NCBI GenBank assembly: GCA_016784965.1
Contig: JADHTQ010000001.1
Coordinates: 124,001-188,000 of the forward strand
DNA length: 64,000 nucleotides
Origin: Bacteriovoracaceae bacterium
Lineage (GTDB): Bacteria; Bdellovibrionota; Bacteriovoracia; Bacteriovoracales; Bacteriovoracaceae
Direction: 5' to 3'
The notes beneath the pieces are model-generated. The model was not told where the DNA came from, searched no databases, and worked only from the letters and a program-made list of their open reading frames with translations. How positions within the stretch are numbered: position 1 is the first letter of the stretch; every line of letters begins with the position of its first letter. This document shows positions 3,022 through 33,610 of the stretch, piece after piece. Made by a program: the position numbers and the translations under genes.

Positions 3022-4200
3022 ATGTTTAAAAGAATTATAGATGTTAACTCTATTTTAAAAAGAAAAGGCCTCTTTCTTTTTGGCCCTCGTCAAACAGGTA
3101 AATCAACCTGGGTTAGACAGACATATCCCAATGCACTGTACATCAATTTGCTATCTAAGAAAGTATTTGATGACTATCTACTACGAACAGATGCTCTTCA
3201 ATCTGATATAAAGTTATTTCAAAGAAATAACTCTTCTAACTTAGTCATCATTGATGAAATTCAAAAAATTCCAGAACTTTTGGATGAAGTACACAATCAA
3301 ATTGAACAAAATAAAAATTTAAGATTTATTTTAACCGGAAGTAGTGCTCGTAAACTCAAGCGTGCAGGGGTAAATCTTCTTGGAGGACGAGCTTCATGGT
3401 GCAGTATGTTCCCTTTAGTCTACCCTGAACTAAAAGAGTATTTTTGTACCATCACAGATCTAGAAAAAAGACTTACAATTGGCGGAATTCCTAGTTTTTA
3501 CCTTTCAGTTGATCCTTTTTCTGATTTTGATGACTATATACAACTGTATCTCAGTGAAGAAATTAAGGCCGAAGGCTTTGTTAGAAACTACCAAGCTTTT
3601 CATCGCTTTCTTTTTGTAACGGCCCTGTGCAATTCCAAACAGCTAAACTTCACCCAAATCGGCAGTGATACCCAAATACCTCCAAGAACTGTAGCCGATT
3701 ATTTTCAGGTGCTAGAGGATACACTAATTGGCCATATATTGCCTGCCTTTACTCAAACCTCCAAACGCAAGGCCATGACAAGTGCGAAATTCTACTTGTT
3801 TGATACAGGACTGGTAAACGCATTATTAGAAAGAAGCGCGGTACGTGCTGGCACCACTGAATTTGGGGAACTATTCGAACAATTTGTAATTTTAGAAGTA
3901 AAGGCCTATCTGTCATACCTTAGAAAAAAGGCCCAAATGTTTTATTGGCGTTCTACCTCTAAGTTAGAAGTAGACCTAATTATTCAATCTAAAAGTCACA
4001 TCTATGCTATAGAGATAAAGGGCAAAGCAACAGTATCCACAAAAGATTGTCGTGGACTTCATGCCTTTTGTGAAGATTTCCCCAATGCTAAAAAATATGT
4101 AGTAACAACGCAATCACGAAGGATAGTTACTAAAGACAATGTCGAAATTATCTCTATCTTTGATTTTTTAGACGATTTGTGGTCTGGAAAAATACTTTAA
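3022..4200 (+). CDS. DUF4143-type AAA ATPase with nuclease-like C-terminal domain
   Basis: 392 residues. The N-terminal P-loop is GPRQTGKST (21-29), the Walker B strand LVIIDEIQ lies near 73-80, and a sensor-like LTGSSARKL follows. The C-terminal DUF4143 region (about 200-390) holds FGELFEQFVILEV, then a PD-(D/E)XK-like core: KLEVDLII and YAIEIKGK, with Asp, Glu and Lys in nuclease-fold positions. Start ATG follows GAGGAA. This widespread family spreads by horizontal transfer and its function is poorly defined. It stands alone here, preceded by a long inverted repeat and converging on the arginine kinase gene. Confidence 0.88.
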   Translation: MFKRIIDVNSILKRKGLFLFGPRQTGKSTWVRQTYPNALYINLLSKKVFDDYLLRTDALQSDIKLFQRNNSSNLVIIDEIQKIPELLDEVHNQIEQNKNLRFILTGSSARKLKRAGVNLLGGRASWCSMFPLVYPELKEYFCTITDLEKRLTIGGIPSFYLSVDPFSDFDDYIQLYLSEEIKAEGFVRNYQAFHRFLFVTALCNSKQLNFTQIGSDTQIPPRTVADYFQVLEDTLIGHILPAFTQTSKRKAMTSAKFYLFDTGLVNALLERSAVRAGTTEFGELFEQFVILEVKAYLSYLRKKAQMFYWRSTSKLEVDLIIQSKSHIYAIEIKGKATVSTKDCRGLHAFCEDFPNAKKYVVTTQSRRIVTKDNVEIISIFDFLDDLWSGKIL

Positions 4201-4211
4201 TATACTGTTAA

Positions 4212-5228
4212 CTATAATTTTGCTTCCTCTCCAATGAGTCTTTTTATCCCATTATATAAGACGTAAACCACATCATTTTCTGAAACTCCCAATCTTTGCT
4301 TATTAGATATATCGTATACTCCTCCCTCACTTTCTGAGTGCTCTCCATGTATACCTCTAATGGAAAGTTTTAAATCATTGCATAAATCTTTAAAGGAGGG
4401 GGTTTTACTTAGTTTTGGAAGTTTTATATGGACACTGGCCCTCATTGCAGTGCCTAGGTTGGTTGGGCAACTGCTTAGATTACCTAAATGACCAGAATAT
4501 GCAAACTGAAGTTTTTTCTCCAAGGTATTAATTGCATTCATTAAGCGCTTAAATACCATCAAAATATCTCCGCCATTTTGCATAGAAATTATTCGCAGAT
4601 GATCTTCTTCATTAATCCATACTAAAAACCTTTTATTATCGGTACAAAAGATCCCACGTCCCCTTGGCCAATCTCTATTGACTCCGGCACTTTCTAAAAA
4701 ACGATCACCTTTTTTAAATAAAAAATGATCGGCAACTAACTTTAACCTCGTTTTTTCATCCATGTCTTCTAGTGAATAATAGGTACCCTGAAGCTCTCCA
4801 GTAAGATCATTTAATGCAGAGATAACTTCTTTTTCAACACTTTGGCGATCATCCAAAGAGATTGCAGCAGCAAATGCGTAACTTGCCAAATTCCTTCCGA
4901 CTCTAATTCTAGTAGAGTTTATTATATCATCTGTTGGGTCAAGATTATCCATCAACAGCTTATCTGTCGATAAATCACTGGTATGTATTCCATCTTTTGG
5001 ATAGCCATGATATTCCTCAATAATTTTATCAAAAAGAGGAGCAAACAATTGATAAGATTCGGCATCTGCTGCATATGCTCCAATACTGCTATCACTGTTT
5101 TCTACCCCAGACCTTACTACATCATCAATTGTAAAACCATTTTGAGTTTTTTTACCCGCAAATTCATTTTTTAAATCATCGGTTAGATACTTAATTGACA
5201 TTGGTAATTTTTTTTCAATTTCTGTCAT
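4212..5228 (-). CDS. Arginine kinase (phosphagen:guanidino phosphotransferase), animal-like
   Basis: 338 residues, full length for a monomeric arginine kinase, which reversibly transfers phosphate from ATP to arginine. The N-terminal helical domain has DAESYQLFAPLFD (55-67) and an STRIRVGRNL segment (R107, R109). The catalytic domain has LVWINEEDHLRIISMQ (E207, R212), the signature CPTNLGT (C254), MRASVHIKLPKL (R263), R291, and GEHSESEGGVYDISNK (E296). By alignment to horseshoe crab arginine kinase these match all five phosphate-binding arginines, the reactive Cys and both catalytic Glu. Bacterial McsB lacks the N-terminal domain, so that alternative is rejected. It diverges from an amino acid ABC transporter, which may supply arginine (inference). 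Transfer from a eukaryote, or an old bacterial lineage, are both possible. Confidence 0.95.
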   Translation of the reverse strand: MTEIEKKLPMSIKYLTDDLKNEFAGKKTQNGFTIDDVVRSGVENSDSSIGAYAADAESYQLFAPLFDKIIEEYHGYPKDGIHTSDLSTDKLLMDNLDPTDDIINSTRIRVGRNLASYAFAAAISLDDRQSVEKEVISALNDLTGELQGTYYSLEDMDEKTRLKLVADHFLFKKGDRFLESAGVNRDWPRGRGIFCTDNKRFLVWINEEDHLRIISMQNGGDILMVFKRLMNAINTLEKKLQFAYSGHLGNLSSCPTNLGTAMRASVHIKLPKLSKTPSFKDLCNDLKLSIRGIHGEHSESEGGVYDISNKQRLGVSENDVVYVLYNGIKRLIGEEAKL

Positions 5229-5379
5229 ATTATCTCTCTTTGTTATATGCTTGCATACTTGTAAACCACTATCTTACTGTCAGGGTAACAATGACTTGAA
5301 GTAAATACTAGCTTTAATTTGTTTAACTTGGTGCAAGAGCAACTTATAAAAAGTTTGCAATCAACAGATGGCAATATGG

Positions 5380-5409
5380 TTGACTTAACTTTTGACACTT
5401 ATGTATCAT
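5380..5409 (+). promoter_or_regulatory. Predicted sigma70-type promoter of the amino acid ABC transporter
   Basis: TTGACT at 5380-5385 and TATCAT at 5404-5409 are separated by 18 bases, about 50 bases upstream of the transporter start at 5459. A further TTGACA lies inside the spacer. Confidence 0.5.
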
Positions 5410-5458
5410 AAACATGCAAACCTATAAATATTACATCTCGTTTATCTGGAGAAATAAC

Positions 5459-6265
5459 ATGAAATACATCCGACACCTAGTTTTGATAGTTGTGGCCATA
5501 CAAATCAGTTTATTTATTCCCAATTTATTTGCAAATGATACAATTGGGAAGATTATTAAAAGAGGAACTCTCAAAGTGGGTCTTGAGGCCGGCTACATGC
5601 CTTTTGAGATGAGAAATAAAAAAGGCAAAATTGTTGGTTTTGATATAGAGCTTGCCAAGATGATGGCCAAGGGATTGGGGGTTAAGCTGGAAATTGTTAA
5701 TACTGAGTGGGATGGTATTATCCCGGCCCTACTGACTGGAAAATTCGATGTGATTTTATCGGGTATGACTCTGACTCAAACCCGCAACACGAAAGTTAAT
5801 TTTTCAGATCCCTATTTAGTAGTCGGACAGAGTATTATTTTAAACAAGAAGCTCAAGGGAAAAATAAAATCATATAAAGATCTCAACAACAAAAAATATA
5901 AAGTTGCCTCAAAGCTTGGAACTACTGGAGAAGAAGCCGTAAAGCGCTTAATACACAAGGCAACTTACAAAGCATACCAAACAGAACAAGAAGGGGTTAT
6001 GGAGGTAGTTAACGGCAGGATTGATGCCTTTGTCTACGACTATCCCTATAATGCCATCTATGCCAATGGCAAAGGAAAAGGCAAGGTTCACTTCCTCTCT
6101 GATACCTTCACCTATGAGCCGATAGCTATAGCCGTCAGAAAAAAAGATCCTGACATCATTAACTGGTTAAATAATTTTTTAAGACAAATTAAAAGAGATG
6201 GTCGTTATGACAAAATTTATGCCAAGTGGTTCCAAAAAACGGACTGGTTGAGTGGCGTCCAATAG
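5459..6265 (+). CDS. Polar amino acid ABC transporter, periplasmic substrate-binding protein
   Basis: 268 residues from ATG 5459, chosen because GGAG sits seven bases upstream and the protein then begins with a normal signal peptide (MKYIRHL, then a hydrophobic stretch ending LFAND); the in-frame ATG at 5414 would add 15 residues before it. The SBP_bac_3 fold is shown by GTLKVGLEAGYMPFE, GFDIELAKMMAKGLG, ILSGMTLTQTR and a DAFVYDYPYNA segment. Ligand class is polar amino acids (Gln, His or Arg type), not decided from sequence alone. First gene of a three-gene transporter operon, overlapping the permease gene by 14 bases. Confidence 0.93.
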   Translation: MKYIRHLVLIVVAIQISLFIPNLFANDTIGKIIKRGTLKVGLEAGYMPFEMRNKKGKIVGFDIELAKMMAKGLGVKLEIVNTEWDGIIPALLTGKFDVILSGMTLTQTRNTKVNFSDPYLVVGQSIILNKKLKGKIKSYKDLNNKKYKVASKLGTTGEEAVKRLIHKATYKAYQTEQEGVMEVVNGRIDAFVYDYPYNAIYANGKGKGKVHFLSDTFTYEPIAIAVRKKDPDIINWLNNFLRQIKRDGRYDKIYAKWFQKTDWLSGVQ

Positions 6266-7211
6266 TAACAACAACTCTCTTTGGTACTTTTTACTGTTTA
6301 GTATAACAGCAGGTCTTATTGTATCATTTTACTATGTCACCGTAAGCTTTGACTATCAATGGACTTGGGAAAAGATTCCCAGATACTTTGTACATTTAGA
6401 CAAACAGACAATTAGGACTCCATTTGACGGAACTGTAAAGGTTGGATCTAATATGCAGTTATTGGTTGTTGGGGATGACGGACAAAAACAAAGCTTTACT
6501 ATTCCTTCTTCTATGCAAGAGGTTGAAGATGGAGACACTGTATTTGAGGGTGATGATCTTGGATATACTAAGCAGTGGAGAATTGGTCCATTGATCTTGG
6601 GCCTCTTTGTTACCTTAAAACTATCATTTGTGGCCACAATTATTGCACTTTTAATTGGCATCGCCACAGGGCTTGCTAGAATCTCTAAAAATCCACTCCT
6701 TAAGTGGCCATCACTTGTTTACGTGGAGGTAATCAGAGGCACTCCACTTTTGGTACAGCTATTTATCATCTATTTTATGGTAGGATCGGTAGTAGGTATT
6801 GAGAGCCGTTTTGTTTGTGGTGTATTGGCACTGGCCCTTTTTGCGGGAGCATATGCTGGTGAGATCATCCGAGCAGGAATCCAATCGATTCATTTTGGTC
6901 AAATGGAGGCAGCTAAATCCTTAGGCATGAACTATACCCAATCAATGATTTATGTCATCCTACCCCAAGTTTTTAAAAGAAGCCTGCCCGCACTTGCTGG
7001 AACCTTTATATCTCTAGTGAAAGACTCATCCTTGGTATCTGTGATGGCACTAACTGATCTTACAAAATCTGGAAGAGAAATTGTCTCTGCTTCTTTTATG
7101 GTGTTTGAGGTGTGGTTAACTGTTGCCCTACTTTACTTCATCATAACATTTGGCCTTTCGTGGGCAGTAAAGCGGCTGGAGGTCAGATTGGCAGTTGGGG
7201 AGCGGGGGTAG
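6252..7211 (+). CDS. Polar amino acid ABC transporter permease with N-terminal periplasmic insert
   Basis: 319 residues, long for a HisM/GlnP permease (about 220). GTG start at 6252 inside the end of the binding-protein gene. After one membrane helix (about 12-31) comes roughly 75 polar residues with a beta-rich look ([19 protein letters not shown]) before the usual permease core from about 115. The core carries [12 protein letters not shown] and the EAA loop [22 protein letters not shown]. The extra domain would face the periplasm and could contact the binding protein (inference). It overlaps the ORF region preceding the ATPase gene. Confidence 0.92.
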
Positions 7212-7218
7212 TACAAGT

Positions 7219-7953
7219 ATGTCGTCACTTATAACAATCAAAGACATCACCAAAACCTTTCCAGGTGGCGTGACCGCTGTCCAAAGCTTCACTCAAGATG
7301 TTTACGCCAAAGAAGTATTGATTATTATAGGGCCAAGTGGCTCGGGAAAAAGCACGGTCCTGAGGATTATTAATCAACTTGAGACCCATGATCACGGTGA
7401 GGTAATTATTGATGGAGTCAACCTCACTACTCATGGAACCAATATAAATAAGGTTAGAGAAGAGGTTGGAATGGTCTTTCAGTCTTTTAATCTATTTCCC
7501 CATAAAACAATACTACAAAACCTAACACTTGGACCTATGGTTGTAAAAAAAGAGTCTAAAGAAGTAGCCCAAAAAAGAGCAAGAGAGCTTTTGGCCAAAG
7601 TGGGCATTGAAGATCAGGCACACAAATACCCCAGTCAGCTTTCAGGTGGTCAACAACAAAGAGCTGCTATCGCTCGTGCCTTGGCCATGGAGCCTAAAAT
7701 TATGCTCTTTGATGAGCCCACCTCAGCCTTAGACCCCGAGATGGTTGGAGAGGTTCTAGAAATCATGAAGCTTTTGGCCCGCGAAGGGATGACTATGGTT
7801 TGCGTGACCCATGAAATGGGCTTTGCGCGCGAGGTTGCCCACAGGGTAATTTTTATGGATCAGGGGGAAATCGTGGAGGAGGGAACTCCGACGGAAATCT
7901 TTAACAACCCACAACACAAGCGCACTCAGCTGTTTTTAAGTCAAGTTCTATAG
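7219..7953 (+). CDS. Polar amino acid ABC transporter ATP-binding protein
   Basis: 244 residues from ATG 7219; an upstream in-frame TTG (7195) would lie within the permease gene. Walker [10 protein letters not shown], signature [19 protein letters not shown], Walker [15 protein letters not shown], and H-loop CVTHEMGFA are complete. This is the GlnQ/HisP class ATPase that powers the permease upstream. It ends three bases before the converging cupin gene, leaving no room for a separate terminator. Confidence 0.95.
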
Positions 7954-10794: not shown

Positions 10795-11382
10795 CTACAA
10801 TCCACCCTTGAGATTCATTAACACAAACTTACTGACCATTTTTAACGTTTCAAAGACACCCTGTCCGTCTATTGCTACTGATTCAAACTCAGGAGCATCC
10901 CATTTATTTAGTTGTTTTTTTAACTCTGAAACAGAGGTTATATTGGGTAGGTCTCTTTTGTTCCATTGCATGACAAATGGCAACTTATCGATTGTGTGCC
11001 CTAAATTTAAAAGGTTTTTCTCTAGATCATTTAGGCTTTCAATATTTTCATCCATTCTCTCAACTTGAGAATCGGCAACAAAAATTACACCATCTACGCC
11101 TTTTAAGATTAACCTACGACTTGCTTCATAAAATACCTGTCCAGGGACAGTATAAAGGTGAAACCTCGTTTTAAAACCTCGTATTACACCGAGGTCTAAA
11201 GGCAAAAAATCAAAAAACAGAGTCCGCTCATTTTCGGTATTTAAAGAGATGATTTTCCCTTTTGAGTCGCTAGTTGTTTTGTGATAAATATATTGAATAT
11301 TGGTAGTTTTCCCCCCAAGACCTGGGCCATAATACACAATCTTGCAATTTATTTCTTTCGTTCGATAGTTAACAAAAGACAT
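10795..11382 (-). CDS. mglA: MglA-type polarity GTPase
   Basis: 195 residues. The P-loop GPGLGGKTTN (19-28) is the MglA form. Other motifs are TVPGQVFYEASRRLIL (switch II region), GVIFVADSQ and QWNKRDLP (guanine specificity). MglA is a small Ras-like GTPase that sets the leading pole in Myxococcus gliding and the invasive pole in Bdellovibrio (established knowledge). The gene just upstream, 13 bases away, encodes a roadblock-like protein, the fold of the MglA partner MglB. The two sit between recR and mtnP on the same strand. Confidence 0.95.
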   Translation of the reverse strand: MSFVNYRTKEINCKIVYYGPGLGGKTTNIQYIYHKTTSDSKGKIISLNTENERTLFFDFLPLDLGVIRGFKTRFHLYTVPGQVFYEASRRLILKGVDGVIFVADSQVERMDENIESLNDLEKNLLNLGHTIDKLPFVMQWNKRDLPNITSVSELKKQLNKWDAPEFESVAIDGQGVFETLKMVSKFVLMNLKGGL

Positions 11383-11395
11383 CTTCTATCTTCCT

Positions 11396-11890
11396 TCAAA
11401 ATGAAAACATGTTATCCATTTCAGCATCTGTAATATCGTTAAAAAGATACTCTGTTTTGTTATTATTTTCTTGTTTTGTTACACAAAATTCATTGCTAGC
11501 ATACTCGCTAAGTTTGTTAGTCAATGTTCTAAGTCCAGATTTTAGTAAGCCTGGATTAATTTCCTTATAAAAAATCGTACCAAAAAAGAATTCTTGGTCC
11601 AAGATTTTCATTGGTAGTATATAAACACCTTTAGAGGAAGTATCAAAGCTTAATCTGAAAAATTCATCCGTTTTTGCTTGCGGTATGAATGAGGTTAAGG
11701 CCGAAGCTGCCTGCCACACTCCTCCAATTAATGCTCCAATAGACATATTATTTAATTCATCCAAAGCATTTGGGCCATGAGCGTATATCGGGATTCCATC
11801 TCTTCGACAAAAGAAAATGTTATAGTTTTCTAAGCCATAGTTTGAAACATTTTCATCCATAAATTTTTTTACACAGTCTGCAAAATCCAT
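11396..11890 (-). CDS. Roadblock/LC7-like protein, candidate MglA partner
   Basis: 164 residues from ATG 11890 (a TTG at 11902 is also possible). The pattern NIFFCRRDGIPIYAHGPN, then ALIGGVWQAASAL, then a strand YILPMKILDQEFFFGTIFY, is what a roadblock/LC7 fold shows: two strands with a Gly turn, a long helix, three more strands. The adjacent gene is mglA. In Myxococcus the roadblock protein MglB is the GTPase activator of MglA. It is divergent from MglB itself, so the assignment is an inference from fold pattern and position. Confidence 0.6.
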   Translation of the reverse strand: MDFADCVKKFMDENVSNYGLENYNIFFCRRDGIPIYAHGPNALDELNNMSIGALIGGVWQAASALTSFIPQAKTDEFFRLSFDTSSKGVYILPMKILDQEFFFGTIFYKEINPGLLKSGLRTLTNKLSEYASNEFCVTKQENNNKTEYLFNDITDAEMDNMFSF

Positions 11891-11908
11891 TTTTATTTCC
11901 AAAATATC

Positions 11909-12520
11909 CTATATTCTTTTTTTGTTTTCTAATGCTTTATTTATAGTCATTGAATCTAAATACTCTAAACTTCCACCCATGGGAATACCAAATCCAATAC
12001 GTGAAACTTCCACCTGCTCTTTACCATTTTCCTCTAATCTCTGTTTTATGTAAGAGCAAGTCGCATCTCCTTCCACAGATGGGTTTAACCCCAAAATAAC
12101 TTCATTAATATTTTCTTCAAATACCCTACTTATGAATTTTTCAATTTTTAACTCGTCAGGGCCTATACCCAATAACGGATTTAATACTCCACCTAAAATG
12201 TGGTATTTGCCATCATATTGTCCACTTTTTTCAACTGCAAGGCAATCAATTATCGTTTCAACCACACAAATGACATTGCTACTACTACGTACTGGTGACG
12301 AGCAGACATCACACAATAGCTTATTGTCATCAGTAAACATTCCGCACTTGGTACATTTTTGCAAATATTGTAAGTTTTTGAAGCTATCTCCAAAACGCTC
12401 TAAGTCTTTGCCACTTAGCTTAGACAAGTATAAAGCATGGCGTAGTGCCGTTTTATTACCTATACCTGGCAATTTACTAATATTTAAAACAGCGTCTTGT
12501 AGTTTTTCAGGTAAATCCAA
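11909..12520 (-). CDS. recR: Recombination protein RecR
   Basis: 203 residues, usual length. Helix-hairpin-helix LPGIGNKTA near the N terminus, a four-Cys zinc finger CTKCGMFTDDNKLLCDVC, then a TOPRIM domain beginning CVVETIIDCLAVE, and a C-terminal Walker B-like GIPMGGSLEYLD. RecR works with RecO and RecF in RecA loading at gaps. Gene order dnaX-ybaB-recR is conserved in many bacteria, which supports the call; mglA and its partner are appended downstream. Confidence 0.96.
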   Translation of the reverse strand: MDLPEKLQDAVLNISKLPGIGNKTALRHALYLSKLSGKDLERFGDSFKNLQYLQKCTKCGMFTDDNKLLCDVCSSPVRSSSNVICVVETIIDCLAVEKSGQYDGKYHILGGVLNPLLGIGPDELKIEKFISRVFEENINEVILGLNPSVEGDATCSYIKQRLEENGKEQVEVSRIGFGIPMGGSLEYLDSMTINKALENKKRI

Positions 12521-18994: not shown

Positions 18995-20269
18995 TTAAAA
19001 TGTAAACAATTTTTTAAGTTTCTGTTCGAGTACTTCATATGAAAAGTGCTGTTTACCCAATTTGTAATTATATTCGGCAATCTCTTTTTGTAGTTTTTTG
19101 TTATGGATAACTTTATCTATTTGAGTTAGCGATTTATCAGTTAATACATTGTCTTCTAACATAACCGCTTTAAAACCCTTGCTCCCAATATCGGGCCAGT
19201 AAACAGGTTTGTAATTATTTACAAAAATTGGTTTTTTGGCCAAAATACATTCAACAAATGCATTTCCAAAGCCCTCATATGTACTAAAATACGTACATGC
19301 TGTTGCGTTGGCATAGGCATCAGACAATGAGTAAATTTTCTTTCCATGATATGATTTTCCTCTTTCACTGAGAATAATATGCCCTCCAAATATCACCTGT
19401 TTTCTCATTTTTCTTTTTTTAATATGATCTATTAGTTCTTTATAGTAGCCCTTTCTTTCATCATCTGCTGCAGTTCCTGTAATAATAAGCTTCAGCCTTT
19501 TATCATCCAAGCGATGAATCATCTCAATTGCTGTCTCTATACCCTTTCTCTTTACAATTCTGGTAATTTGAAAAATTGGAATATCATTTTTACCAACACC
19601 AAGTCGTTCCAATAGGTCTTTGTTATAATCATTTTTTCTAGCATAGGGCTTTGAAAAATCCATAACGTTTGGAACAATTGTTGATTTGATCCCCAGTTTC
19701 TTCTTTAAAATTTTCTTTGAATATTCGTTGATAACTGCATGTTTAACATTTGGAAGATTTAGAGGAAATGTCTCCTTGATAATATTATCAATTTCTTTAT
19801 GTGGAGTTTTATACCTATCTCCTCTTTCCCAGTGAAAATCATGGTCATGAGTTACTACGGGAATTTTGATAATTTCTACTGCCTTTTTTATCCCCATACC
19901 CATGGAAAGATGGCACGGTAGGGCCGATGCGTTTTCTGATAGTAGGGCATCAATTTTGTTTCGCGAGATCCAATAAAAAATCTCTTTGGCTATATGATCA
20001 GAAGTTTGCTCTAAATGGGCAATTAAATTTCTTGGATTTTCCTTGGGGAAAAAGAAGGCCCTATTTTGTTCCCACTCACAGTTGGGAGAAAAAAATGACA
20101 GATGTGTTAACAGAGTTCGATATTTTTCTGGTATTATGTTGTTTTTAAAACTACCTGCCATTATATACACTTTATGACCCATCTTAACTAAAATTTTTAT
20201 CCATTTTTCTGTCTCTAGGGCCACACCATCAACGTCACCGATTCGCCCGATAATAATACCAATATTCAT
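18995..20269 (-). CDS. GT4-type glycosyltransferase
   Basis: 424 residues in a GT-B fold. The N-terminal Rossmann half starts MNIGIIIGRIGDVDGVALETEKW; PVVTHDHDFHWERGDRY and PNVMDF mark the domain junction. The C-terminal half has FQITRIVKRKGIETAIEMI, LIITGTAADD, and the donor-site FSTYEGFGNAFVECILAKKP (E-x7-E of retaining GT4 enzymes). Its first four bases overlap the end of the TIR gene, so it is translationally coupled to it. Donor and acceptor unknown. No other polysaccharide gene is adjacent, which sets it apart from usual glycan clusters and links it to the TIR/RyR operon. Confidence 0.88.
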   Translation of the reverse strand: MNIGIIIGRIGDVDGVALETEKWIKILVKMGHKVYIMAGSFKNNIIPEKYRTLLTHLSFFSPNCEWEQNRAFFFPKENPRNLIAHLEQTSDHIAKEIFYWISRNKIDALLSENASALPCHLSMGMGIKKAVEIIKIPVVTHDHDFHWERGDRYKTPHKEIDNIIKETFPLNLPNVKHAVINEYSKKILKKKLGIKSTIVPNVMDFSKPYARKNDYNKDLLERLGVGKNDIPIFQITRIVKRKGIETAIEMIHRLDDKRLKLIITGTAADDERKGYYKELIDHIKKRKMRKQVIFGGHIILSERGKSYHGKKIYSLSDAYANATACTYFSTYEGFGNAFVECILAKKPIFVNNYKPVYWPDIGSKGFKAVMLEDNVLTDKSLTQIDKVIHNKKLQKEIAEYNYKLGKQHFSYEVLEQKLKKLFTF

Positions 20270-21822
20270 AACGATCCTCCGTAATACTTTTTGAAACTTT
20301 CCAATATAGCTTCTTCCAGCTTAATAATAATATCTAAGTTTATGTTATTAACTGATGAGTAAATATCTGACTTTGCAAAACCTATTTCCAATACTACTTC
20401 GGGAATTGGGGTCAACTTAATTTTTTCAAAATTCTTTTTTTCACTAAAGATTTCTTTAACGTCTTTGCTTAGTTGTCGTTCCAAAAGCCACACCATTTTT
20501 TGAGCTCTTTGACCAGAGTAGCTTATTTTATAATATGGCACTGAAGATCTTTCAACTTTAACCTTAAAAAGAATGGTCGCACCCATTTGCTTTGCCCTAT
20601 TTAAGCGGTCTTGTTGTAAAATAGGCTCATTTAAAGATGTTATTAACTTTAATGATGGACGATGATAACCTTTTAACAACCCTCGCTCCAACATAAGTAG
20701 TAGCTCAAACGCCAAAAGGTCTACCTTGGTTCCTCCTGAGCTATATATAATATCAAATAGAAAAAAATCTCTTAACTTAATATTTCTAGCATTATTGCGA
20801 TTTTTTTTAAATAGACGATAGTTTAGGACTGAATCTATTTTTGAAAGTTGATTATATTCAGGGAAAGTTATCTGCTTCTTATTCATTGCATTTAATAGCT
20901 TTTCTCGCTCTTCATAATAGGTCATAGCACGATTGGTTTTATTAAACAGTAGTCCACTACGTAGTAAAATATTTTCTTTCAACTTTTCTAATTCATAAAG
21001 TGAATTATTTGCTAAATTGCCACCATATGTTGTCGAAGTCATCTGTGGCGGAAGTGCTACTCTGGGTTTAGCCAAAGGTTTAATTACTGGTTTTGGAATA
21101 ATTTTGGCCACTGGTTTTGGAGTAATTTTGGCCACTGGTTTTGCCGGCTTGCTTTCAACATGTTTGACAGCTATGACAGCCGGCTCATCACTCACATTCG
21201 ATGTAAAAAAAGTATATCCCGCCACAATTACAACACATAATATGACAAATACTGCAGCAGCAATGCCATACTTAAGTTGTTTAGACCTAAAAGTTTTAGA
21301 GAATGTTTTTGCTTTCTTTTTGTTTTTGGCCTCAAGTTTTTTAAGCTCTAATTTACTTAATTTAAATGGACGAATTATCGTATTATCACTCACGTCATCT
21401 GAGGATTTGGTTTCTGCTTTTTGTTGTAATACTGTCTTTGCAATGGAAATTAATTCCTGTATATGGTCTTCTAAATTACCAGAATAGGCATTAAGCCAAT
21501 GTGTATTGCATAGATAATACTCCATGGCAGCAGATGGAATAGTTTCATCTATCCTAAATGGTATAATTGTAATCCTGGCATTAACCGCCCGATCAATTTC
21601 TTTTTGTACTTGAACTGATTTATTCGAATTAGCAGAAAAAATAAGTAGCATTAACTTTGAATGGTTTATAGCATCGAGTAGAGATTTAGCGTAGATCTCT
21701 CCTGGTACTATGTCCCGAGGTGCGATCCAACATTTCAAACCTGCACTTTCAAGTTCATTGCATACCTTTTGGGCAAGGCTTACTTCTGCCGATGAATGGC
21801 TGATGAACACAAGATGTTTCAT
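20266..21822 (-). CDS. TIR domain membrane protein with long C-terminal domain
   Basis: 518 residues. A TIR domain (1-130) has VFISHSSAE, CWIAPRDIVPGE, LMLLIFSANSNKS and QVQKEIDRAV; E75 aligns with the catalytic Glu of NAD-cleaving TIR domains. One membrane helix (about 186-206) follows, then a Pro/Lys/Val-rich repeat (220-260) built from tandem PKPVAKI units, and a C-terminal domain of about 250 residues that should lie outside the inner membrane and has no family I recognise. It sits between the RyR/cyclase-like gene (10 bases upstream) and the glycosyltransferase gene (4-base overlap). A role in immunity or signalling is inference. Confidence 0.85.
   Translation of the reverse strand: MKHLVFISHSSAEVSLAQKVCNELESAGLKCWIAPRDIVPGEIYAKSLLDAINHSKLMLLIFSANSNKSVQVQKEIDRAVNARITIIPFRIDETIPSAAMEYYLCNTHWLNAYSGNLEDHIQELISIAKTVLQQKAETKSSDDVSDNTIIRPFKLSKLELKKLEAKNKKKAKTFSKTFRSKQLKYGIAAAVFVILCVVIVAGYTFFTSNVSDEPAVIAVKHVESKPAKPVAKITPKPVAKIIPKPVIKPLAKPRVALPPQMTSTTYGGNLANNSLYELEKLKENILLRSGLLFNKTNRAMTYYEEREKLLNAMNKKQITFPEYNQLSKIDSVLNYRLFKKNRNNARNIKLRDFFLFDIIYSSGGTKVDLLAFELLLMLERGLLKGYHRPSLKLITSLNEPILQQDRLNRAKQMGATILFKVKVERSSVPYYKISYSGQRAQKMVWLLERQLSKDVKEIFSEKKNFEKIKLTPIPEVVLEIGFAKSDIYSSVNNINLDIIIKLEEAILESFKKYYGGSL
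21087..21144. repeat. 24-base tandem repeat, about 2.4 copies, within the TIR gene
   Basis: Units 21087-21110 and 21111-21134 differ at one or two bases and a third partial copy follows. They encode the Pro-Lys-Pro-Val-Ala-Lys linker just after the membrane helix, so they form a spacer of adjustable length. Confidence 0.8.
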
Positions 21823-21832
21823 GGTATCTTAA

Positions 21833-23743
21833 CTATGTCCTCCTCAAGCAATACATAGGAAATGAACCAAATTTTTTAGCAAGAGATATTTTTCCAACAT
21901 AATCACAGCGAAAGGAGTTTATATCCATTAACACTGATAATGCTGCAAATTCTCTTCCGACAAAGATTTCTCCTGGAGGCGTAATAGGCTCAATCCTTGC
22001 TGCTGTACAAATGTTGCTACCGCTGTAGCTGGTTCTCCCTGTTAGTTTATTGGTTGTTTTTATAACCGGCCCGGCATGCAATGCTATTCGTAGTTTCATC
22101 GGGATGTGAAGTCCTAGATCACTCCAATTTATATTGTTGATCCGCTCAGAAAGTGATAGTGCAAAAAGCCCTGCATCTTCAATTTTATGAAACACTAAAA
22201 ATAAAGCATCCCCCCAAGTATTTTTTGATGCAAGCTCTAGATTAAATTCATCTAATAACTCTATTACAACACTCGACAATTTATCTTCAAAAACAACAAT
22301 CTCATTATCCTTGAGCTTGGCATAGTTTGATGCATCAGCAAACAAAATGGCCTTAAGATCATAATTGGCCGTTACCGATTGTTTTAAGGAGTCACATGAC
22401 CACTCTTTGTTCTTTGTGACGATAGATACATCATTATTATCGATTTTAAAAATAACTAGCTCAGTATCTAACTGCTGGGACTTTATAGTAGCAATCCCAT
22501 AATTGACAAATTTATAGTATTCATAATCAACATCAAAATTTGATGATTCCATTGTTTTAATCGCTACCACTTGAGAAAAATCTTTTAAGTTACTTTCAAA
22601 ATCATCTATAAGACTTTTCTCATTATTGAAATTCAGATAACAAATGAGATCTCTATCCATTTTATCAAGTACTTTACCCAAGCGTTTAAATATCTTGGCA
22701 TCAACCTTATCCTTGGATAGTTTACCTTCAAAAATTACAACTACTGGTACTTTAATACTATCAAGTAATTTTGCTTTATCTTTACCTGAAATTTTCGAGA
22801 TTTTAAGTATTTGTTTTAAATTACTAACTGTAGTCGCCAAGTCACCAATGCGCTTGCCCGAGTTGCAAAAAGCTTGATGGTACCAATTTATTGCATCTTC
22901 AAACTGATTCATGACCAAAGATGCCTCTCCCATTGTGGCGTAAGTCCAATATAAATTATCCTTTGTTTCACCTTTTAAGGACTCTTCACATTTTTTAAAA
23001 ACTTGGCCAGCAACTTCAAATGATGCTTTTTTTTCACCAAGATGAATTAGTGTCCAAGCAACGTTAATACCTGTCCAAGTTCCTCTTTTTTTCTCGTAGG
23101 CCATGAGATAATATTTGTGAGCTTTCTTGAGATGCTCATCGCTTGGGTTGCTACTATTTTGTGACTTCTTCCAGAGTTCTTTGTGGGTTTTGGCCAGTAA
23201 GCCAAGTGTCCTTTCGCTATCGTCACCTAATTCAAATAAAGACGTAAGATAATCATTTGCCCTCTCGGTCATTCCTAGTCGGGTTAGTGCCATGGCCTTT
23301 AATTGTCGGGGACGGGTAGCCTCGGGAAAATTGCGACTGATTTCATCAAATAAATCATGGGCCATAAGTGGCTTTCCAGTTCGCAACAATTCTTCTCCGG
23401 TAGCCAGAAATTCATCAAACTTTTTATAGCTTCTTATATCATGACCTTTACTATCACTTTTTGGAGGAGTTATGTCATACCCTAATGCTTTTATTAACCT
23501 GATGGCACCCATAGCACTCATACGATCATATTCTTGTTCGTCATTTGATAGTTGTTCATATGGCACCAGGCAAGGATGCTTTTTCTTAGGGTCATCACGT
23601 TTGCTGCCAAAAGACCATCCTTCACTCATACGATTTATGGACCAAATTTCATGGGTATTTTTGGCGAGCAATTCTGTTAACTCTTCTAAGTAATATTCAA
23701 GTTGAATATTTGAAACATCGATTGGTTTTGGTTTGTAGGACAT
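21833..23743 (-). CDS. RyR domain - TPR - nucleotide-cyclase-like multidomain protein
   Basis: 636 residues, no signal or membrane helix. An RyR domain (about 4-92) has HEIWSINRMSEGWSFG, LVPYEQLSNDEQEYDR and IKALGYDI. A TPR-like helical region runs 105-310. A degenerate alpha/beta domain (about 330-450, starting VPVVVIFEGKL) follows. A class III cyclase-like domain (464-630) keeps both metal Asp (D470, D512) and the transition-state Arg (R583), but S572 replaces the base-reading Asp and C579 the transition-state Asn. It may have an altered product or be a binding domain. RyR domains in bacteria are predicted nucleotide sensors in conflict systems (established predictions). First gene of an operon with TIR and glycosyltransferase genes. 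Confidence 0.82.
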   Translation of the reverse strand: MSYKPKPIDVSNIQLEYYLEELTELLAKNTHEIWSINRMSEGWSFGSKRDDPKKKHPCLVPYEQLSNDEQEYDRMSAMGAIRLIKALGYDITPPKSDSKGHDIRSYKKFDEFLATGEELLRTGKPLMAHDLFDEISRNFPEATRPRQLKAMALTRLGMTERANDYLTSLFELGDDSERTLGLLAKTHKELWKKSQNSSNPSDEHLKKAHKYYLMAYEKKRGTWTGINVAWTLIHLGEKKASFEVAGQVFKKCEESLKGETKDNLYWTYATMGEASLVMNQFEDAINWYHQAFCNSGKRIGDLATTVSNLKQILKISKISGKDKAKLLDSIKVPVVVIFEGKLSKDKVDAKIFKRLGKVLDKMDRDLICYLNFNNEKSLIDDFESNLKDFSQVVAIKTMESSNFDVDYEYYKFVNYGIATIKSQQLDTELVIFKIDNNDVSIVTKNKEWSCDSLKQSVTANYDLKAILFADASNYAKLKDNEIVVFEDKLSSVVIELLDEFNLELASKNTWGDALFLVFHKIEDAGLFALSLSERINNINWSDLGLHIPMKLRIALHAGPVIKTTNKLTGRTSYSGSNICTAARIEPITPPGEIFVGREFAALSVLMDINSFRCDYVGKISLAKKFGSFPMYCLRRT

Positions 23744-23886
23744 ATTATCATAATAACCATACTAAGAAAAAAATCAAAAAAATCTTAAATTGCAGTAATT
23801 TGAGCACCTTTTTCCTATCTGATAATTTTGCCCCATGATACCATTGTATGAAGAAAATGTTTGGCACTTAAGTGGAGTAAATACAT
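23744..23886. promoter_or_regulatory. Divergent promoter region of the RyR/TIR/GT and channel/vWA operons
   Basis: A 143-base AT-rich gap separates two start codons facing away from each other. Rightward, TTGAGC and GATAAT lie 15 bases apart near 23797-23823; leftward, a TATTAT-like element is next to the RyR start. GTGGAG precedes the channel gene ATG. The shared gap makes joint control of the two operons plausible. Confidence 0.4.
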
Positions 23887-24633
23887 ATGTCAAGAGCAGG
23901 AAATATTCTCAGATCATTTATGCTTGCTACTTTTATAGTTGGGGTAAGCTACATCGGTCTCACTGCAACCGGCACCTCAGAGACCATGGCCTTTTTAAGA
24001 AGAATTTGTATTCTTCTTGGTGGAAATATTACTGGTGGTGGCTACATTCAATTTTTTACATATTTTGCTTTTTTTTGGTCACTATTTGATATTTTAAGTA
24101 AACTCGAAAAAATTAGAAAAGAGCAAAGGGCGTTCAAGTATAAGCTCTTACCAACTGATGAAAGACATGTACTTATGCCTAAAGACTTAATGCAGATCAA
24201 ACTAAAAATTGATGAATATGAAAAAAAGGGAAATTATCTACTAAATGCCGTAATTAAAAAGGCATGTATTAAATTTCGTACTTCAAATTCCATTTCTGAG
24301 ATAATTAATATCATTAATATTCAAACAGACATTAATAAAGAAAAATCTGAAAGTGGACAATCAAATATTCGTTATCTCACCTGGGCTATCCCTTCCATCG
24401 GATTTATTGGTACAGTGCTGGGCATTTCACAAGCGCTACAAGTGGCAAACAGTGGTGACATGAATAAAATAACAGCTACACTTGGTGTGGCATTTGACAC
24501 CACCTTAGTTGCTCTGTGCTTGAGTATTATTGTAATGTGGTTTTTTCATAGGCTACAAGAAGAAACTGATACACTACACGCAAAAATTAAAGAATATGTC
24601 ATTGAACATTTAGTTAATAGAATTGAAGTTTAA
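23887..24633 (+). CDS. MotA/TolQ/ExbB-family proton channel protein
   Basis: 248 residues. Two N-terminal membrane helices (about 10-28 and 50-70), a cytoplasmic loop of about 100 residues, then the diagnostic C-terminal helix pair: YLTWAIPSIGFIGTVLGISQAL and TLGVAFDTTLVALCLSIIVMWFF, equivalent to TolQ/ExbB helices with the GTV-GI and Thr-Thr pore positions. Such proteins form pentamers around a dimeric MotB/ExbD/TolR-like stem and convert ion flow into rotation. The partner is the vWA gene seven bases downstream. Divergent from the RyR/TIR operon. Confidence 0.85.
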   Translation: MSRAGNILRSFMLATFIVGVSYIGLTATGTSETMAFLRRICILLGGNITGGGYIQFFTYFAFFWSLFDILSKLEKIRKEQRAFKYKLLPTDERHVLMPKDLMQIKLKIDEYEKKGNYLLNAVIKKACIKFRTSNSISEIINIINIQTDINKEKSESGQSNIRYLTWAIPSIGFIGTVLGISQALQVANSGDMNKITATLGVAFDTTLVALCLSIIVMWFFHRLQEETDTLHAKIKEYVIEHLVNRIEV

Positions 24634-24639
24634 AAATAG

Positions 24640-25572
24640 ATGTCGAAGATAAAAAGAGAAAGTAATGTATTCAGTATCGCGTTTTTAGACCTGCTATCAG
24701 GTGCCCTTGGAGCTGTTATAATTTTATATATTGCTGTACCCAAGGCATCGATTAAAACAGAACACTCAGACAAAAGCAAAATAGAAATCATCATAAAAGA
24801 AAAAAAAGAGGTCACCAGGCAATTAAATAAATGTAGAAGTAAAAATACGACCTATGAAGAACTTGTGAAAAAAAACCATGATGATTCCGAAAAACAAATT
24901 ACAGCACTAAAAGAGAAAATTTCAGCACTAAAAAAAGAAAAAATTAAAACACCTCCCCCTCCTCCACCTCCTCCTCCAAAGATTAGAAAGAAAGCAAAAG
25001 ACAGTGGGTTTGCTGCCCAACCACTGGATGTGGGATTTCAGTTTAAGGGCAAAAAGATTGTTTTTGTAATTGATGTATCAGGTAGTATGATGCAAGAAGA
25101 TCGCATCGGACAAGTTAAAGCTGGTCTTAAAATGCTCATTACCTCCATGTCAAAAGAATTTATGGTTAATGTCGTTTCATTTCCAAATCGCAATAAGACT
25201 CCTTTTAAAAATCTGTGGCATGCCCCTAGATTTACGACCGCTGATAACAAAAAAGAGGTCTATAAGTTTTTAAATGGTCTATCAGCTTATGGAACAACTC
25301 CAACACGAGAAGCTCTAAAACATGTCTTTGAAAAGTACTCCGATATTACAGACATCGTTTTGCTATCTGATGGCGCACCGACCACTTTTAATTCGCAAAA
25401 GCGCGATGACATCTATAAACTTCTAAGCGATTTAGCAAGCCAAAATGTGTTTGATATTCAGGTCAATACAATTGGAGTCGGTTCCGATTTTTTAAAAGAT
25501 ATAAATAATTTGAAATACATTTTCCTATCAAAGCTAGCAGCAGACCATAATGGCTTTTTTGTAGGTTTTTGA
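24640..25572 (+). CDS. MotB/ExbD-like stem protein carrying a von Willebrand A domain
   Basis: 310 residues. A single N-terminal helix, FLDLLSGALGAVIILYI (15-31), has an Asp (D17) at the position of the ion-carrying Asp of MotB/ExbD. A coiled-coil stretch (50-103), a run of nine prolines (105-113), then a vWA domain (about 135-305) with the MIDAS motif DVSGS (145-149) and a later TTPTRE Thr and LLSDGAP Asp, so the metal site looks complete. A peptidoglycan-binding OmpA or ExbD domain is absent; the vWA domain takes its place. Function is unknown. The gene is coupled to the channel gene. Confidence 0.85.
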   Translation: MSKIKRESNVFSIAFLDLLSGALGAVIILYIAVPKASIKTEHSDKSKIEIIIKEKKEVTRQLNKCRSKNTTYEELVKKNHDDSEKQITALKEKISALKKEKIKTPPPPPPPPPKIRKKAKDSGFAAQPLDVGFQFKGKKIVFVIDVSGSMMQEDRIGQVKAGLKMLITSMSKEFMVNVVSFPNRNKTPFKNLWHAPRFTTADNKKEVYKFLNGLSAYGTTPTREALKHVFEKYSDITDIVLLSDGAPTTFNSQKRDDIYKLLSDLASQNVFDIQVNTIGVGSDFLKDINNLKYIFLSKLAADHNGFFVGF

Positions 25573-32535: not shown

Positions 32536-32560
32536 TTAATAACACATATTGGAGGTAGTA

Positions 32561-33610
<1,050 letters not shown>

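Follow-up and report, generated by a model that had tools for sequence, protein, structure and literature searches.

Arginine kinase is used by many animals to bank energy as phosphoarginine. Bacterial members of the class have been listed in Desulfotalea, Myxococcus, Moritella and Sulfurovum, and their origin is debated between horizontal transfer and an ancient presence (PMC6429109). These four cases bear out the statement of an earlier note on the present DNA that the class is not new in bacteria, and the protein described here belongs to the same enzyme class. A literature search returned no paper joining arginine kinase and Bdellovibrio, an absence that is no proof of novelty, and a combined search including Bacteriovorax and Patescibacteria returned only the review cited above.

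The DNA analysed here (the window, 64,000 nucleotides) corresponds to positions 124001-188000 of a 200.7-kb contig in an assembly of 4.59 Mb and 126 contigs. Judging from its sequence, the protein encoded at 4212-5228 is a genuine, complete and apparently functional arginine-type phosphagen kinase. It is real, ordinary in kind and new in its lineage, and adds a Bacteriovorax-like lineage to the known bacterial carriers of arginine kinase. The gene, its neighbours and two genes of the mglA region are the following:

4212..5228, minus strand: two-domain arginine kinase (a phosphagen kinase) of 338 aa; from Pfam, PDB sequence matches, residue mapping, AlphaFold model and VIA-align
5229..5413, no strand: intergenic region with the upstream regions of the kinase and of a divergent ABC importer; from the sequence
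5414..6265, plus strand: polar amino-acid ABC substrate-binding protein (SBP_bac_3); a Lys/Arg/Orn-like model is best, below its cut-off
6252..7211, plus strand: ABC permease; from profile matches
7195..7953, plus strand: ABC ATPase, GlnQ/TcyN-like; from profile matches
10795..11382, minus strand: lineage marker, a Ras-type GTPase resembling MglA; the order of genes agrees with PMC3983030
11396..11902, minus strand: 168-residue open reading frame at the position of the Bacteriovorax MglB-like protein; BMS_0053 also has 168 residues (PMC3983030)

The kinase gene and its product

The open reading frame starts with ATG, encodes 338 residues on the minus strand and is free of internal stops; a GA-rich stretch lies immediately 5' of the start codon. 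Promoter and terminator scans around the gene, including the intergenic region, gave no signal above chance, and the kinase fits no PADLOC defence model. The two domains demanded of a phosphagen (ATP:guanido) kinase are present in a single chain, namely the N-terminal PF02807 (E = 1.1e-22) and the C-terminal catalytic PF00217 (E = 2.8e-75), both far above the Pfam cut-off (gathering score). A PDB sequence search placed animal phosphagen kinases at the top, arginine kinases foremost (4rf6, 4bg4, 1m15).

Residues were mapped onto the shrimp/Limulus arginine kinase numbering. The guanidinium- and phosphate-binding set of Limulus (R124, R126, E225, R229, C271, N274, R280, R309 and E314) is kept in nine of nine positions, respectively as R107, R109, E208, R212, C254, N257, R263, R291 and E296. 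Over 16 bacterial homologues, 65 columns are invariant, R107, R109, E208, R212, C254, R263, R291 and E296 among them. The loop holding the arginine carboxylate, D62-S63-G64-V65-Y68 in Limulus, reads D46-S47-S48-I49-Y52 in the kinase. Both changes, G64S and V65I, are conservative and lie in a loop that binds largely via its backbone. Apart from these two positions, the kinase has the residues described as contacting guanidinium, carboxylate and phosphate in arginine kinase (PMC5598448; PMC11075012). The earlier note's claim of a full-length two-domain arginine-type kinase in a bacterium is thus upheld by the intact frame, the Pfam and PDB matches and the residues. Its list of catalytic residues stands for R107, R109, R212, C254, R263, R291 and E296 but not for E207, which corresponds to E224, the catalytic glutamate E225 being E208.

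An AlphaFold model, computed with an alignment of 16 bacterial homologues as input, reached a mean pLDDT of 89.1 and a pTM of 0.89. The best Foldseek matches were the arginine kinases of Anthopleura (E = 1.5e-43) and Limulus, and VIA-align gave Z scores of 40-44 over 322-336 residues against phosphagen kinases. The predicted two-domain fold shows a phosphagen kinase. In Z score, arginine kinases have no lead over creatine, lombricine and glycocyamine kinases, so that the assignment to arginine rests on sequence identity and on the specificity loop.

Relationship to animal and bacterial arginine kinases

The arginine kinases of Anthopleura (4rf6), Litopenaeus (4bg4) and Limulus (1bg0/1m15) have the same domains, fold, loop type and catalytic residues as the window kinase. 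The latter differs from the animal enzymes by a slightly shorter N-terminus and by its position outside the animal group in the tree; it is also a single unit, whereas the Anthopleura enzyme is a fused double one. It had been described as close to arthropod enzymes, which is right in so far as identity to the shrimp enzyme is about 51%, but the sea anemone enzyme is closer (Anthopleura domain 2, 56%) and the closest homologues are bacterial (59-62%), from a gammaproteobacterial MAG and three genomes of 0.6-0.8 Mb. Together with relatives elsewhere, these form a set of bacterial animal-type kinases with both domains and the same catalytic residues, 52-62% identical to the window kinase: L003 (the gammaproteobacterial MAG NORP69), L004, L005 and L021 (the three small genomes), L006 and its relatives, and the Osedax symbiont Rs1 (L008). 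They differ from the window kinase in host and in gene neighbours. The Desulfobacterales kinases recovered here are 41-48% identical to it.

The genes of the small genomes (L004 5950-6990, L005 5890-6987, L021 6001-7026) encode complete animal-type arginine kinases, and in L004 and L005 a nitroreductase gene lies immediately 3' of the kinase gene. By their size, these genomes are probably Patescibacteria. A further homologue, 41% identical and annotated as hypothetical, is carried with adjoining IS elements at 3893-4990 of L040, a plasmid (NZ_CP110821.1) of Candidatus Bandiella woodruffii, endosymbiont of the ciliate Euplotes; its transfer from the eukaryotic host is possible.

A first tree containing rows for McsB, Bandiella, Chloroflexi and Comamonadaceae was long-branched and was rebuilt without them. 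The eukaryotes in the tree were chains of solved structures only, with sequences taken from alignments, and the four named proteins of Desulfotalea, Moritella, Sulfurovum and Myxococcus lay outside its sample. In the rebuilt tree the window kinase, L003, L004, L005 and L021 form a clade (98/95), and the Desulfobacterales kinases are separated from the remaining sequences by a 100/100 branch. The AU test rejected a clade of the window kinase with animals alone (p-AU 0.0003), with arthropods alone (p-AU 0.0013) and with the sea anemone, a cnidarian, alone (p 0.002); its grouping with Desulfobacterales was weakly rejected (p 0.02). A single clade of all animal-like bacterial kinases was neither shown nor rejected (p 0.52), which leaves either direction of animal-bacterial transfer compatible with the data. 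The label animal-like is therefore apt for the type of enzyme, in view of the 56% and 51% identities, but not for its grouping, which is with bacterial kinases. The window kinase is the offshoot of no sampled animal enzyme. A viral origin was rejected as well: IMG/VR held no relatives, and the matches in the phage collection were McsB-like and 24-31% identical.

Distribution and origin

The kinase is present in a single copy in the window's genome and was found in none of the 58 other relatives searched. Across the phylum, the N-terminal phosphagen kinase domain occurred in one of 368 genomes searched (181 genera), that of the window, which suggests horizontal acquisition. Elsewhere the kinase was found in eight of 249 genomes from the phylum of L006, which is probably Campylobacterota by its fumarate reductase genes, in one of 192 from the phylum of L021 and in two of 293 from the order of L003. 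Other carriers are Desulfobacterales, a Flavobacteriaceae MAG, the Osedax symbiont, Comamonadaceae, a Chloroflexi MAG and the Bandiella plasmid. The occurrence across bacteria is patchy, and animal-type arginine kinases also occur in very small bacterial genomes and in several other bacterial groups. We infer that horizontal transfer brought the gene into the Bacteriovorax-like lineage, its immediate source being, most simply, a further bacterial carrier of an animal-type enzyme. The remaining members of its clade come from unrelated bacteria, and this clade and its spread bear on the choice between an ancient origin of the bacterial enzymes and their horizontal movement.

Host and gene neighbourhood

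The window carries the gene order dnaX-ybaB-recR-168-residue frame-mglA, which is that of Bacteriovorax marinus. In this species a 168-residue MglB-like protein (BMS_0053) and mglA (BMS_0054) lie downstream of recR (PMC3983030), matching window positions 10795-12520. The 168-residue frame has no Pfam match, and it is MglB-like by length and place. The host would accordingly be Bacteriovorax-like, and the shared order makes a predator lineage plausible. Of the earlier suggestion that the host is a likely predator, the lineage is plausible from the mglA neighbourhood; the predatory lifestyle is putative. At least eight flagellin genes are present in the genome (contigs C15, C52, C79, C81 and C120).

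Upstream of the kinase, 185 bp apart, lies the divergent ABC importer. Its substrate is probably a polar amino acid, which the models do not fix further. No conserved pairing of kinase and importer was found: a similar importer without the kinase occurs at L083, in another family of the same phylum, and the neighbours of other bacterial arginine kinases are different ones. On the other side, a convergent AAA_14/DUF4143 ATPase (3022-4200) matches the PADLOC phage-defence candidate PDC-S01 (E = 1.1e-61). Beyond it lies a TatD-TcdA pair, conserved in two family members lacking the kinase. This conservation, with the unconserved importer pairing, makes the kinase look like a lineage-specific insertion outside any conserved operon.

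Alternative explanations

The catalytic fold is shared with McsB, and the NCBIfam McsB models do hit the catalytic half of the protein, at best with 161 bits (161.1). That it is a protein-arginine kinase of this type, tagging proteins for degradation, is nevertheless extremely improbable. Every McsB model scores far under its cut-off (161 bits against 385 or more), the McsB match in the PDB search is much weaker (E about 1e-27) and covers the C-terminal part only, and PF02807, which McsB lacks, is present. The gene context differs too: the neighbours are the DUF4143 ATPase and the ABC importer, with ctsR, mcsA and clpC not among them, and, in contrast to B. subtilis, neither McsA nor ClpC had a recognisable homologue next to the kinase. 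A phylogeny had been proposed in the earlier note as a check, placement with McsB counting against an arginine kinase; McsB was found on a branch of length 3.1, remote from all phosphagen kinases, and membership was rejected on this distance and the sub-cut-off scores. It is unlikely that the protein, while sharing the phosphagen kinase fold, acts on a guanidino compound other than L-arginine, be it agmatine, taurocyamine, glycocyamine, D-arginine or one as yet unknown. In favour of this reading, the fold and the C-terminal residues are common to the whole family, the structural scores do not separate substrates, and the kinase has S instead of G at position 64 and H instead of R at 312. Both replacements, however, occur in the sea anemone arginine kinase as well (S64 in domain 2), the nearest solved sequences are arginine kinases, and the loop ENSDSSIGAYAAD is of arginine-kinase type, in which it differs from the compared kinases for creatine and taurocyamine.

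The gene's presence in one genome of the phylum sample, a draft assembly with 3.8% estimated contamination, might suggest an assembly contaminant or a eukaryotic gene. We consider this scarcely credible. The gene lies well within the 200.7-kb contig and is free of introns, and its GC content of 0.351 compares with 0.364 (sd 0.027) as the mean of the window. Compared over its full length, the LeuRS of the same contig shares 69-73% identity with twelve genomes of its own family and no more than 59% with the phylum's other families, a few same-family genomes having a more diverged LeuRS; this pattern indicates that the contig is native. A more serious possibility, though still short of an even one, is that the enzyme is an arginine kinase whose role is not to be a fast ATP buffer for movement but to store arginine, imported or from prey, as phosphoarginine, or to help in surviving stress or in differentiation, functions reported in Myxococcus. 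The nearby polar amino-acid importer is in favour of it. Against it, the models leave the substrate of the importer undecided, the importer genes have a GC content of 0.38-0.45, above the window mean and exceeding the 0.35 of the kinase, and their pairing with the kinase is not conserved.

Proposed function

The reading we favour, and hold to be very probable, is that of a horizontally acquired kinase that would buffer ATP via free L-arginine and phosphoarginine. The soluble enzyme would reversibly move phosphate from MgATP to free L-arginine, yielding phosphoarginine and ADP, and phosphoarginine would thereby buffer ATP under fluctuating demand or supply. L-arginine turnover and a cellular phosphoarginine pool are predicted on this basis. 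The arginine may come from the cell's own synthesis (argG is present in the genome), from prey or through the divergent importer. A role in attack-phase swimming is speculation. The fuller picture of a predator with an acquired animal-type phosphagen system, in which phosphoarginine made from prey-derived or imported arginine powers swimming bursts or prey entry, is unlikely. With the window kinase, phosphagen use can be put to the test in an organism that may be a predator.

Other features of the window

A cluster at 20266-25572 encodes a TIR-domain protein, a RyR/TPR-S/guanylate-cyclase-like protein, a MotA/ExbB-like protein (weakly ZorA-like) and a VWA protein; it could function in signalling or defence. 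The protein encoded at 32549-33610 has a long Pro-Glu repeat tail, which is mirrored on the opposite strand by a probably spurious Gly-Ser open reading frame.
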